This document shows, in pieces, positions 1,356 through 8,096 of a DNA stretch of 23,248 nt. The stretch is from a virus. The translations under genes and the position numbers were made by a program. The DNA lies in the IMG/VR virus record IMGVR_UViG_3300008262_000316, positions 1 to 23,248 of that record; one strand, 5' to 3'. The stretch's first letter is position 1. Every line of letters starts with the position of its first letter. Under the pieces are notes generated by a model. That model did not search any database. It was not told the DNA's origin and worked only from the letters and a program-made list of their open reading frames with translations.

Positions 1356-2027
1356 ATGCAGAATAACGCCTATCGACTTTTAGTTGAAGAACCAACATAT
1401 GAAGTTCAATATTTAATTGAAGAAAAAAACAGAAATTCTCCATCAAATTTATTTATTCATGGACCATTTTTGATGGCAGATGAAGCTAACAAAAATAAAA
1501 GAATTTATCCATTAGAAGAAATGGTTAAAGAAGTCGATAGATATTCTAAAGAGATGATCTTAAATAAAAGATCAACAGGAGAATTAAACCACCCACAATC
1601 TCCAGAAATTAATCTTGAAAGAATCTGTCATATGGTTACAGATCTTAAACAAAACGGAAATATCTTTGAAGGAAAATCAAGAATTCTTTCTACACCAATG
1701 GGACAAATCGTTAGGTCACTTCTTTTAGATGATGTTAAATTAGGAGTTTCTTCTAGAGCATTAGGAAGACTTGACCAAGATGGTCAATACAACAGAGTTT
1801 CTGATTTTAGATTAGTAGCAGTAGATGTTGTTGCTGATCCTTCTGTTCCTACTGCATTTGTAAATGGTATTTTAGAATCAAAACAATGGATACTTCAAGA
1901 TAATGGACAATTTGAACCTTTATTTGAAAGGTTCGAAAAAAATATTAGTAACCTTCCTAAAAATAATAAAAACGTTTATTTAAAGGAACAAGTGATTGCG
2001 TTCATTAATGCACTCAAAACATTGTAA
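1356..2027 (+). CDS. 21: Prohead core protease gp21
   Basis: Maturation protease of the T4 prohead, a serine protease related to herpesvirus assemblins. It sits in the core and cleaves scaffold, capsid and internal proteins at (I/L)xE|(A/G) sites. The product is 223 aa (T4 gp21 is 212). Candidate catalytic residues are H79 in STGELNHP, S132/S133 in KLGVSSRALG, and an Asp in VAVDVVADPSVP (D157 or D161). The start was chosen at the first ATG after the AT-rich promoter-like region; there is no Shine-Dalgarno. It sits directly upstream of its core and scaffold substrates, the usual T4-family order. Confidence 0.92.
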   Translation: MQNNAYRLLVEEPTYEVQYLIEEKNRNSPSNLFIHGPFLMADEANKNKRIYPLEEMVKEVDRYSKEMILNKRSTGELNHPQSPEINLERICHMVTDLKQNGNIFEGKSRILSTPMGQIVRSLLLDDVKLGVSSRALGRLDQDGQYNRVSDFRLVAVDVVADPSVPTAFVNGILESKQWILQDNGQFEPLFERFEKNISNLPKNNKNVYLKEQVIAFINALKTL

Positions 2028-3240: not shown

Positions 3241-4680
3241 ATGAATACAATCAAACCCTCAACAGGCTTCATCGACAAAGGTCGTGCTGACATGTTATTG
3301 GAAAAATGGGCACCCGTTTTGAACTATAGTTCAGATCGTGTTAAGCCGTTAGAAGACGATCACACTCGTTTATCTACTGCTATCCTCATGGAAAACCAAG
3401 AACGTTGGTGCATTGAAGAAAACGGTAATGTCAGCGGTATCGCTGGTGTTTACGGTGGTTCTGCTCCTGGTCAGACTGGTCTTTCTAACAGTGATAGTTA
3501 CGCAACAGGTGATGCAAGACTTCCAAAGGTATTAATCCCTATGGTTCGTCGTACATTCCCTGAGCTTATCACTAATGAGATCGTCGGTGTTCAGCCAATG
3601 GCTGGTCCAGTTGGTTTGGCATTCGCTATGCGTTATAAGTATGATACCGCAAGTTTAGGTGGAACAGGTGTTGACGGATACGGCACACTTGGACCACGTA
3701 CTGCTGGAAATGATGGCGTTCCTCGCCAAAATGATGGCACTGAACTTGGTTATCAAAATCTTGATACTCGCTTTACTGGTACTAGTGCTGCATTCTTGAG
3801 CGGAAACAGCGATTTCACAGTCGTTGGAGAAGATCAAGGTGTTGCTGCACTTTTAAGTCAGTTTGAGTTAACTGGAAACATTCCTCAAGTATCTCTTGAG
3901 TTCGCAAAGACTGCTGTTGAAGCTAAAACTCGTCGTTTAGCTGCTCGCTGGTCCGTTGAACTTGAGCAAGATATGAAGAACATGAATGGTCTTGATGTTG
4001 ATTCTGAATTAACAAATGCTATGAGCTATGAAATTCAGGCCGAAATCGACCGTGAAATGATCATGAGAATGGTTCAGATCTCTCTCAACGCCGGTAAAGG
4101 CAATGGATATAGTTTCTGGTACGCTGCTTCCGCTGATGCCCGTTGGCTCGGCGAACGCAATCGTGACTTCTACAGCAAGATTATTGTCGAGGCTAACCGC
4201 ATCGCAATCCGCAACCGCCGTGGTTCTGCTAACTTCATCGTTGCAACACCTCGCGTCTGCACTATTCTTGAGATGTTACCAGAGTTCCAATGGATGCCAG
4301 TAAACGGCAACGTTAATACTCAACCTACAGGCATTGCCAAGGTTGGTAATCTCGGTGGTCGTTTCGCAATCTATAGAGACACTCGTACAGAAGCTCAACT
4401 ATTGGCCGGTACAAGAAGCGCAAACGATGCTATTGAGTATGCACTTTTAGGTTACAAGGGTGCTGAATACTATGATACTGGTATCGTATATTGCCCATAT
4501 ATCCCTGTTATGATTCAACGTACTATCGGTCCTAATGACTTCTCTCCAAGAGTTGGTCTTATGACTAGATATGGTGTTGTTGATCATATCTTCGGAGCAA
4601 GCTTATACTATCACACAATCATTGTAAAAGGTCTTGGAACTGACAATGTTGCTCAAACCGCAGGTCGCCTCTATCTCTAA
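3241..4680 (+). CDS. 23: Major capsid protein gp23
   Basis: Main HK97-fold shell protein of T4-like heads. The product is 479 aa (T4 gp23 is 521 before cleavage). Family-like landmarks are the N-terminal LLEKWAPVLN segment, PKVLIPMVRRTFPELITNEIVGVQPM (about 94-119), the MRYKY strand, the AKTRRLAARWSVELEQDMKNMNGLDVDSEL helix and the ANFIVATPRVCTILEML segment. A gp21-like cleavage site may lie at IEE|N (60|61), but N at P1' is unusual. This gene stands out in composition: bases 4081-4140 are 31/60 G+C, while 12661-12720 in a tail gene are 6/60. Its arginines are mostly CGT/CGC (about 27, against about 6 AGA), whereas the other genes use AGA almost exclusively. This is consistent with selection for very high expression. 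It is followed by the strongest terminator in the window. Confidence 0.95.
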   Translation: MNTIKPSTGFIDKGRADMLLEKWAPVLNYSSDRVKPLEDDHTRLSTAILMENQERWCIEENGNVSGIAGVYGGSAPGQTGLSNSDSYATGDARLPKVLIPMVRRTFPELITNEIVGVQPMAGPVGLAFAMRYKYDTASLGGTGVDGYGTLGPRTAGNDGVPRQNDGTELGYQNLDTRFTGTSAAFLSGNSDFTVVGEDQGVAALLSQFELTGNIPQVSLEFAKTAVEAKTRRLAARWSVELEQDMKNMNGLDVDSELTNAMSYEIQAEIDREMIMRMVQISLNAGKGNGYSFWYAASADARWLGERNRDFYSKIIVEANRIAIRNRRGSANFIVATPRVCTILEMLPEFQWMPVNGNVNTQPTGIAKVGNLGGRFAIYRDTRTEAQLLAGTRSANDAIEYALLGYKGAEYYDTGIVYCPYIPVMIQRTIGPNDFSPRVGLMTRYGVVDHIFGASLYYHTIIVKGLGTDNVAQTAGRLYL

Positions 4681-4694
4681 GTTGATAGAATCCC

Positions 4695-4732
4695 AAAAAA
4701 ACCCGTTGATAGAAATATCAACGGGTTTTTTA
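4695..4732 (+). terminator. Strong intrinsic terminator after gp23
   Basis: ACCCGTTGATA (4701-4711) and TATCAACGGGT (4716-4726) form an 11-bp perfect stem closed by a GAAA tetraloop (GNRA class). It is flanked by an A-run (4695-4700) and a T-run (4726-4731) that extend the pairing and give a U-tail. The A-run makes it able to act on both strands. It is the most GC-rich hairpin seen in the window. Confidence 0.92.
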
Positions 4733-4739
4733 TTTTTAT

Positions 4740-4767
4740 TTGACATTCATAAATTATATCATTAAAT
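4740..4767 (+). promoter_or_regulatory. Possible sigma70-like promoter before the 79-aa gene
   Basis: TTGACA (4740-4745) matches the bacterial -35 consensus exactly. TTAAAT (4762-4767), 16 bases further on, is a weak -10. An overlapping CATAAATT (4748-4755) resembles the late element TATAAATA at 6 of 8 bases, so either reading is possible. It restarts transcription just after the gp23 terminator. Confidence 0.4.
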
Positions 4768-4773
4768 TATTGT

Positions 4774-5013
4774 ATGGACAAAAAGAAACTTTTTTCAAAA
4801 TTAAAAAACCCCAAAGGACCATTCACTATGGATTTTGTTTTTTCTGGTATAGAATTTAATGCTGTTATAAACCATGCTATGCCATCTGAATATACAATTA
4901 AATTAAAAAGTAAAACAAAAAATATATCCAAGTATTTTTTAGATAACGTCAAGGGATATTTGGAACTAGAAGGATTTGTTGATATGGCAGAAAAACATAA
5001 TTTATTTTGGTAA
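4774..5013 (+). CDS. Hypothetical protein, 79 aa
   Basis: Small gene between gp23 and the 331-aa gene; I do not recognise the family. The product is basic and looks mixed alpha/beta, with no signal peptide or membrane segment: a Lys-rich start, FTMDFVFSGIEFNAVINHAM, a TIKLKSKTKNISKYFLDNVKGY stretch and a C-terminal HNLFW. The + strand reading is preferred over the longer opposite-strand frame (4767-5048). It lies just after the gp23 terminator, ends before the next TAAATA element, and shares the strand of its neighbours. Confidence 0.55.
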   Translation: MDKKKLFSKLKNPKGPFTMDFVFSGIEFNAVINHAMPSEYTIKLKSKTKNISKYFLDNVKGYLELEGFVDMAEKHNLFW

Positions 5014-5022
5014 GTTTTTTGG

Positions 5023-5028
5023 TAAATA
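5023..5028 (+). promoter_or_regulatory. GGTAAATA element before the 331-aa gene
   Basis: GGTAAATATATGAT leads straight into the ATG at 5035, with TAAATA ending 6 bases before it. It shares GGTAAATAT with the gp23 upstream region. If it acts as a T4 late -10 box, transcription would begin at about the start codon, giving a leaderless mRNA. Confidence 0.45.
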
Positions 5029-5034
5029 TATGAT

Positions 5035-6030
5035 ATGAATTTATTCAACGAGTTTTATCATAATATAATATCAGAAGCTACTTCTAAAGTAGCTAAAAAG
5101 TCTTCATTATCTAAACTTCAACACGGATATGCAAGACAGTCATTAGAATCACAACAAGCACAAAATGCTTCTGTTGTTGAACTAAAGCCTTCTAATTTTT
5201 CATCTTTACAAAAATCAATTAAAGATAACAATGATGATTATGAAAAAGCTCAAGATATGTTTAATATAATTAAAGGTGTTCATGAAAAGGCACTTGAAAA
5301 GATACAACAAACAAAACCAGAGCTTTATAGAGCATTGTTAAAAATGACAACATCTAAGTTTCATGATCCTGAATTATTAAAAACACAAAATATACAACAA
5401 TTTAAAGCTAATATTTTAAAAGAATTAAATGATTCTAAGAATAAAGGAGAAATTGATCAAAAACAATTTGTTAAGTTTTTCATGAATTCAGCAAAATGGC
5501 ATAAATTGTATGCATCTATTCTTTTGGAATTAGAAAAGGTTTCTATAGAAGGAGATACAGAACAAGAAAAAGAAAATATAGCTAGATCTGAAATTCAAAC
5601 AGTAAATCCTTTAACAAGAAGAGATAGATCACAATTTATTTCAGCTAAAAAAGAAAAGGCTAATGATAAATCTACTGTATTTTATTTTGATTCTAAAGGA
5701 AGACCATATAAAACAACTATTATTATACCAAATGCCTCATATGATTCTTTACAAGAAAATGAGGATAATGTTCCAGTAACTGGATCATTTTATAGAGGAG
5801 GATTAAGAAACTTTGGAAATCCAACCCCTCCCCCTTATTTTGAGGATGAGGATGGCGCTGAAGTTAATTCTTATGATCCAGAAGAATTAAGAGGAAAACC
5901 TGTTTCGAAAATAAAACAATTAGTTAATCATGATGCGGCTAAATCAGCATACGAAAAAATGATTAATGATCCAGATTTCAGAAAAAAATATCCAACAGAT
6001 AAATTTAGAAAGTCTTATAGTTTAGAATAG
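5035..6030 (+). CDS. Candidate internal head protein with capsid-targeting sequence
   Basis: The 331-aa product has no family I recognise. Its N terminus, MNLFNEFYHNIISEA, resembles the capsid-targeting propeptide of T4 internal proteins (IPI-III type, MKTYQEFIAEA): a short amphipathic start, an EF pair, and ISE|A (14|15), which fits the gp21 rule. After cleavage the protein would begin ATSKVAKKSSLSK, basic like packaged DNA-associated proteins. Residues about 60-180 look helical; a middle segment, STVFYFDSKGRPYKTTIIIP, looks like strands; a Gly/Pro-rich GSFYRGGLRNFGNPTPPPYF region follows, with an acidic patch and a charged C-terminal helix. It belongs to the head region, two genes after gp23. 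The internal-protein role is inferred from these points. It ends one base before the convergent gp16-like gene. Confidence 0.6.
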   Translation: MNLFNEFYHNIISEATSKVAKKSSLSKLQHGYARQSLESQQAQNASVVELKPSNFSSLQKSIKDNNDDYEKAQDMFNIIKGVHEKALEKIQQTKPELYRALLKMTTSKFHDPELLKTQNIQQFKANILKELNDSKNKGEIDQKQFVKFFMNSAKWHKLYASILLELEKVSIEGDTEQEKENIARSEIQTVNPLTRRDRSQFISAKKEKANDKSTVFYFDSKGRPYKTTIIIPNASYDSLQENEDNVPVTGSFYRGGLRNFGNPTPPPYFEDEDGAEVNSYDPEELRGKPVSKIKQLVNHDAAKSAYEKMINDPDFRKKYPTDKFRKSYSLE

Positions 6031-7555: not shown

Positions 7556-7568
7556 AGATTTATTTTTT
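7548..7568. terminator. AT-only bidirectional terminator between convergent genes
   Basis: AAAAATAA (7548-7555) pairs with TTATTTTT (7560-7567) around a 4-base loop, and each strand ends in a T-run. The stem has no G-C pairs, so it is weak, but it lies exactly between the gp44 stop and the stop of the convergent 178-aa gene. Confidence 0.45.
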
Positions 7569-8096
7569 AATTTTAATTTTTATATTCTTTTTAGTTAAAG
7601 ATTTATCAATTGGTAGATTTCCTACCTTTAAAAAATCTGGAGCTTCTTTGGGAGAATAATCGGTCATAGGTTGTTCGTATTTGTTTGGAACACCCTGTAC
7701 TGGTGGTAAATTTGGACCAAAATCTAAAATTTCAATAAATTTAAAATCAGCAGGAACATTAAATTCTGAAAATTCTGTTGGGTGTGAAGGTGATCTTGGG
7801 TCTGTTTTAATTGTTAAATAAAGATTGTTTGATCCAGAATAATCATTTGCGTCTTGTCTGTCCATCATTGTTCCATCAGCATGGATTTTATGAATAAAAA
7901 AGAAAATTCCTAATTTAACTAGATTTTGTAGCCAGTCGGTAAAAACCGAATCTCCAGAATATCTTTGTTTAAAGTAAGGAGAAGAGAAAAAACTATCTTT
8001 TATTTTTACTGGTGTATTTTCTCTAAATGCTCCACCGTTTGCATATTTGGCAAATGCTTTTTCGTATATTAAATTAAAAGAATTATATTTTGTCAT
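7560..8096 (-). CDS. Hypothetical protein, 178 aa, divergent from gp25
   Basis: I do not recognise this family with confidence. The N-terminal part, NLIYEKAFAKYANGGAFRENTPVKIKD (about 8-34), is followed by SVFTDWLQNLVKLGIFFFIHKIHADG, a Pro-rich middle (DPRSPSHPTEFSEFNVP; PNLPPVQGVPNKYEQP) and a very basic C-terminal tail ending in KKNIKIKIKK. There is no signal peptide or clear membrane helix; the LGIFFFI run is too short. It shares an overlapping late-type promoter with gp25, which argues that it is expressed late and may be a virion or assembly protein. Confidence 0.7.
   Translation of the reverse strand: MTKYNSFNLIYEKAFAKYANGGAFRENTPVKIKDSFFSSPYFKQRYSGDSVFTDWLQNLVKLGIFFFIHKIHADGTMMDRQDANDYSGSNNLYLTIKTDPRSPSHPTEFSEFNVPADFKFIEILDFGPNLPPVQGVPNKYEQPMTDYSPKEAPDFLKVGNLPIDKSLTKKNIKIKIKK

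Follow-up and report, generated by a model that had tools for sequence, protein, structure and literature searches.

Some of the internal proteins of phage T4 are known to counter restriction or to help take over the host, and to our knowledge little has been learned about such proteins beyond cultured phages. The question whether an uncultured T4-like virus packages a protein of this kind is raised by a gene for a 331-aa protein (X331; 5035-6030, plus strand; N-terminus MNLFNEFYHNIISEATSK), which is located just downstream of the major capsid gene gp23 on a viral record of 23,248 bases. This whole record is referred to as the window. The original prediction held that X331 starts with a T4-style targeting propeptide, and the sequence tests agree with it: the geometry is conserved, a site of the gp21 type is present and the gene appears to be a late, variable one beside gp23. 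Thus, we regard it as likely that X331 is a T4-type capsid-targeted internal head protein, whose tag is cut after E14 and which is probably ejected into the host. The following features of the window bear on this question:

1356..2027 (+): gp21-like prohead protease (PF03420, E=3.6e-26); its own N-terminus contains LLVE
3241..4680 (+): gp23 major capsid protein (PF07068, E=3.8e-91); predicted maturation site C-I-E-E60, followed by N61
4696..4731 (+): intrinsic terminator downstream of gp23; stem of 16 pairs and T-run
4740..4768 (+): sigma-70-like promoter before X79 (TTGACA, 17 nt, TAAATT); consensus match only
4774..5013 (+): X79, small partner gene (79 aa) that shares its contigs with X331
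5023-5028 (+): late-type box TAAATA, 6 nt before the X331 start codon
5035..5076 (+): predicted capsid-targeting propeptide, residues 1-14 (MNLFNEFYHNIISE), from conservation and an AF2 helix
5074..5079 (+): predicted cleavage by the prohead protease after E14 and before A15 (I-S-E, then A), from the L/I-X-E rule of gp21 and the gp23 site
5077..6030 (+): mature X331, residues 15-331 plus stop; AF2 model with a mean pLDDT of 65.6; pI 9.0

The placement of the 331-aa gene in the head region is borne out by its immediate upstream neighbours, which are gp23, a gp22-like gene and a prohead protease of the S77 type. The gp22-like scaffold gene and a small gp67-like gene were named by position and sequence style, the library support being weak. 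Downstream of gp23, the order is intrinsic terminator, TTGAC-type promoter, X79, late-type box and X331. Stem-loops of differing sequence occupy the place of the terminator in three relatives (L002, L004 and L018). The promoter call is supported by a TTGAC at a similar place in the same three relatives, while sigma-70-like consensus matches in the region are about as numerous as in shuffled sequence (14 found, 13.5 in shuffles). The best-ranked cultured gp23 proteins come from T4-like cyanophages and are only about 33-35% identical to the window gp23, and the virus therefore belongs to an uncultured, distant T4-like clade. In one relative (L074:4970-6748, plus strand), the prohead protease gene contains an in-frame insertion of about 370 aa that resembles an intein and is absent from the window copy; it matches Intein_splicing (PF14890) with E=9e-9, slightly short of the cut-off.

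X331 belongs to an orphan family with relatives on about ten environmental viral contigs; no relative was found among 50,697 records of cultured phages or in GTDB, searched with one genome per species. Identity to the window protein ranges from 96 down to about 33% among the members, the most divergent ones being at about 33-36%. The dN/dS values of about 0.1-0.37 between the relatives indicate purifying selection and thus a real gene. X79 is present on every contig bearing X331, and a search with X79 yields the same set of contigs; this small protein has no match in Pfam, PHROG or PDB.

The N-terminus of X331 shows the features that had first drawn attention to it. Positions 5035-5079 of the window encode MNLFNEFYHNIISE followed by alanine, with the EF pair at E6-F7 and the IxE site as I12-S13-E14 before A15. 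In the nine aligned members, M1, L3, F4, Y8 and E14 are invariant and position 7 is either F or Y. The tag ends in [I/L/V]xE before A or M across the family: most members have ISE, LTE or IQE before alanine, while the L009/L014 branch has VNE before methionine and departs at P3 (Val) and P1' (Met). The mean identity between the subgroups is 54% for residues 1-14 versus 26% for residues 15-39. Moreover, AF2 places a helix at residues 3-17, partly with low confidence. According to the rule for T4-type capsid-targeting sequences (CTS), the N-terminal propeptide comprises 10-19 residues and has aromatic residues at positions 4 and 7 (PMC9026906). In the CTS of T4 IPIII (MKTYQEFIAE, cut before A), residues 4 and 7 serve targeting and residues 8 and 10 processing, which is blocked by an aspartate at position 10 (PMC9026906). 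X331 has the corresponding features with F4, F7, I12 and E14 in a propeptide of 14 residues. Conservation, geometry and the glutamate site thus support the prediction that X331 starts with a capsid-targeting propeptide like those of T4, closed by a site of the gp21 type.

Does the virus have a protease that could cut at this site? The T4 enzyme gp21 cleaves after L/I-X-E (PMC9026906), and a gp21-type protease (PF03420) is encoded in the window as well as in all six large relatives. In 57 aligned gp23 sequences, [I/L/V]xE is kept at the expected maturation point, with A, S, N or G as the next residue in most of them. Furthermore, the N-terminus of the protease itself keeps LLVE or a close variant in the clade. 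Because both places retain such a motif, [I/L]xE is a credible cut motif of the clade, with the specificity being read from the gp23 site, and the ISE of X331 before alanine would fit it.

It could be argued that the helix is an ordinary one, that IxE before alanine is a coincidence and that X331, whose gene would follow gp23 by chance, has no place in the head. Indeed, IxE is short and common, and the AF2 confidence is low at residues 1-6 and 13-35. However, no member of the family lacks E14 or the aromatic pattern. The frequency of the motif also speaks to this point. As the window is the whole viral record, the proteome scan drew on six related contigs of 130-212 kb (G001, G005-G008 and G021), two of which carry X331. 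The 1342 proteins were grouped into 647 families by their sequence beyond the N-terminus. Of these 647 families, 18 have a tag-like motif at the N-terminus with E at P1, while 3.4 were expected from internal positions of proteins (5.3-fold, p=1.8e-8), and the residue after the motif glutamate is alanine in 16 of 90 cases (18%) versus 5% (p=8e-6); the patterns were drawn up after viewing X331, and these p-values are therefore somewhat inflated. This choice matters much less for the comparison of E with D or Q: with other residues at P1, the ratio of observed to expected families is 0.2 for D, 1.0 for Q and 0.4-2.5 for the remaining ones. The excess is thus specific to glutamate, in line with the proposed protease site. 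The exact T4 geometry, with aromatics at 4 and 7 and [ILV]xE within the next five residues, occurs at 0.00094 per internal position, and about 0.25 such proteins are expected by chance in a genome of 270 genes. As a positive control, a closely similar pattern matched 10 of 255 open reading frames in T4, including ipII, ipIII, alt, gp24 and gp2. The products of ipII, ipIII, alt and gp24 are gp21 substrates. About half of the T4 matches are not known head proteins, so that the motif alone would be right about half the time.

The DNA upstream of the gene provides a further line of evidence. X331 had been credited with its own late-type box, and TAAATA at 5023-5028 is of the same kind as the boxes before the head genes of the window, where TAA[AG]TA occurs near the start codons of gp21, gp67, gp22, gp23, gp25 and gp6. 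The box before X331 is conserved in L002, L004, L009, L014 and L018, and it has been lost in L001 through a 20-bp deletion; late expression of X331 is predicted from it. In the related contigs, 31 of 52 tagged families have a late-type box versus 127 of 595 untagged ones (p=1.5e-8), and the box is found in 18 of 102 families whose motif has a residue other than E. This comparison reads DNA outside the coding region and is therefore independent of the protein motif, although the box may in part reflect the context of the translation start. The association of the tag with late boxes, the specificity for E at P1 and the T4 control all argue against a chance resemblance, which we consider quite unlikely.

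The spacing of these boxes was also recorded. In the six related contigs, TAA[AG]TA mostly lies 5-7 nt before the ATG, and Shine-Dalgarno-like motifs precede the boxed genes at about the rate of shuffled sequence, except in G008. Assuming that transcription is initiated as it is at the late promoters of T4, the late mRNAs would be nearly leaderless.

Several other proteins with such N-termini were observed. The window itself encodes, at 7560-8096 on the minus strand, a clade-conserved protein of no known family that starts with MTKYNSFNLIYE followed by KAF and has the T4-type geometry (aromatics at 4 and 7, IxE). Two very basic proteins of 52-66 aa are candidate DNA-binding internal proteins: one (L093:13083-13283, minus strand) starts with MISFKEFLLE followed by KRKR and has the exact spacing of T4 IPII and IPIII, and the other (G006:58420-58578, plus strand) starts with MKKISFKEYLLE followed by KKKR. 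A cluster of small tagged proteins is located at G005:174843-197584 (loci L130-L131), several of which share a further, ALKSF-like motif shortly behind the tag.

The position of X331 is variable among relatives. The space between gp23 and the next conserved gene (neg160) could be compared in 64 relatives in which both genes are seen: it is shorter than 300 bp in 25; X331 occupies it in 7 and a different tagged protein in 21, while 11 have only untagged genes there. These counts are suggestive, since the search pattern for this slot was written after looking. The other tagged proteins form families of 93-108 aa and 148-156 aa and are unrelated in sequence to X331. Moreover, X331 is missing from most relatives whose gp23 is 74-79% identical to that of the window. 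Judged from these sequences, X331 is dispensable in the clade and looks like variable cargo, which argues against a role in the shell or the core.

Two alternatives have to be weighed here. X331 could be a component of the prohead scaffold or core, like gp68, that is targeted by its tag and is not an injected effector. The gene lies among core genes in a window in which no gp68 was recognised, the T4 internal protein IPIII has a role in assembly (PMC9026906), and the conserved L239-x-E241 of X331 could be a second cut site. However, in the window protein a small residue follows an [ILV]xE site at only two places, whereas core proteins get cut to pieces; the mature domain is conserved, and the gene is absent from most close relatives as described above. 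A core role is therefore rather unlikely. X331 could also belong to the shell, for example as a diverged gp24 vertex protein, since its genomic place and the style of its propeptide resemble T4 gene 24 (MAKINELLRE, followed by S). In addition, a homing endonuclease gene lies between gp23 and X79 at L009:9501-10952 (minus strand; phrog_3339, E=2e-117) and at L014:3217-4554 (minus strand), a situation comparable to that in T4, where segD sits between genes 23 and 24. This reading is very improbable, since X331 has neither profile similarity to gp24 nor a match to the Gp23 family, its largely helical model has no capsid-protein match, and close relatives do without it.

What the mature part of a capsid-targeted X331 might do was approached by structure prediction. 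The AF2 model comprises a low-confidence linker, a helical domain at about residues 40-170, a conserved strand pair at 211-231 and a PPP region; a model based on the L017 member was of lower quality (pLDDT 61.7). The pI of the mature protein is 8.3-9.6 across the family. X331 gave only weak and inconsistent matches in Pfam, PHROGs and PADLOC, the sequence search of PDB yielded nothing, and Foldseek found no match below 0.001 to the first model in PDB and BFVD. Homology to T4 IPIII was discarded for lack of profile similarity, and an Alt-type ADP-ribosyltransferase because there was no Pfam, Alt-profile or fold match. Likewise, a gp24 vertex protein with the HK97 fold had no Gp23-family, gp24-profile or fold match to recommend it. 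The earlier impression that the mature protein is unlike known internal proteins has thus held up. The T4 internal proteins are a diverse set with the CTS as the only common part, and one of them, IPI*, inhibits a restriction enzyme (PMC3012670). By analogy, mature X331 would most likely block a host defence or aid host take-over.

The following are read directly from sequence: the tag with its conservation, a protease and a gp23 site that match it, the late box, the E-specific enrichment across the clade, and the variable, dispensable locus. From them we infer the fate of the protein. Residues 1-14 would form a helical capsid-targeting sequence, whose aromatics at 4 and 7 may dock on the prohead core of gp22 and gp67. 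The S77 protease would then cut after E14, and the basic mature protein of 36 kDa would be retained in the head with the DNA. The protein would then probably enter the host by ejection and, once there, most likely serve as an accessory factor against defences or for take-over. A wider and rather doubtful idea is that the tags are a cargo code on tens of unrelated late proteins, that the place after gp23 is an exchange slot, and that X331 is a new injected effector accompanied by an early-expressed partner, X79, perhaps a chaperone or an antidote for the producing cell. If the reading of X331 as an internal protein is right, tag and late box together would list candidate injected proteins of uncultured T4-like genomes. 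Most of these candidates belong to no family that is recognised, and testing of the X331 family would begin with X331 itself.

Known T4 systems offer three comparisons. Like T4 gp24, X331 follows gp23 and has a short propeptide ending in an LxE-type site, but it lacks similarity to gp24 and is absent from most relatives. T4 Alt is an injected ADP-ribosyltransferase that is placed in the head core. X331 resembles it as a large protein with a short propeptide, for which placement in the head core and injection are predicted by analogy; unlike Alt, it belongs to no recognised catalytic family, and the two share no sequence or profile similarity. With 317 aa, the mature part of X331 is larger than and unrelated to that of any T4 internal protein; in contrast to the T4 genes, X331 is a neighbour of gp23 and has a small partner gene, and its cut is predicted four residues later than in IPII and IPIII, which corresponds to about one helical turn. 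However, X331 shares with IPI, IPII and IPIII the short propeptide, the aromatics at 4 and 7 and the IxE site, as well as a basic, highly variable mature part encoded by an accessory gene.
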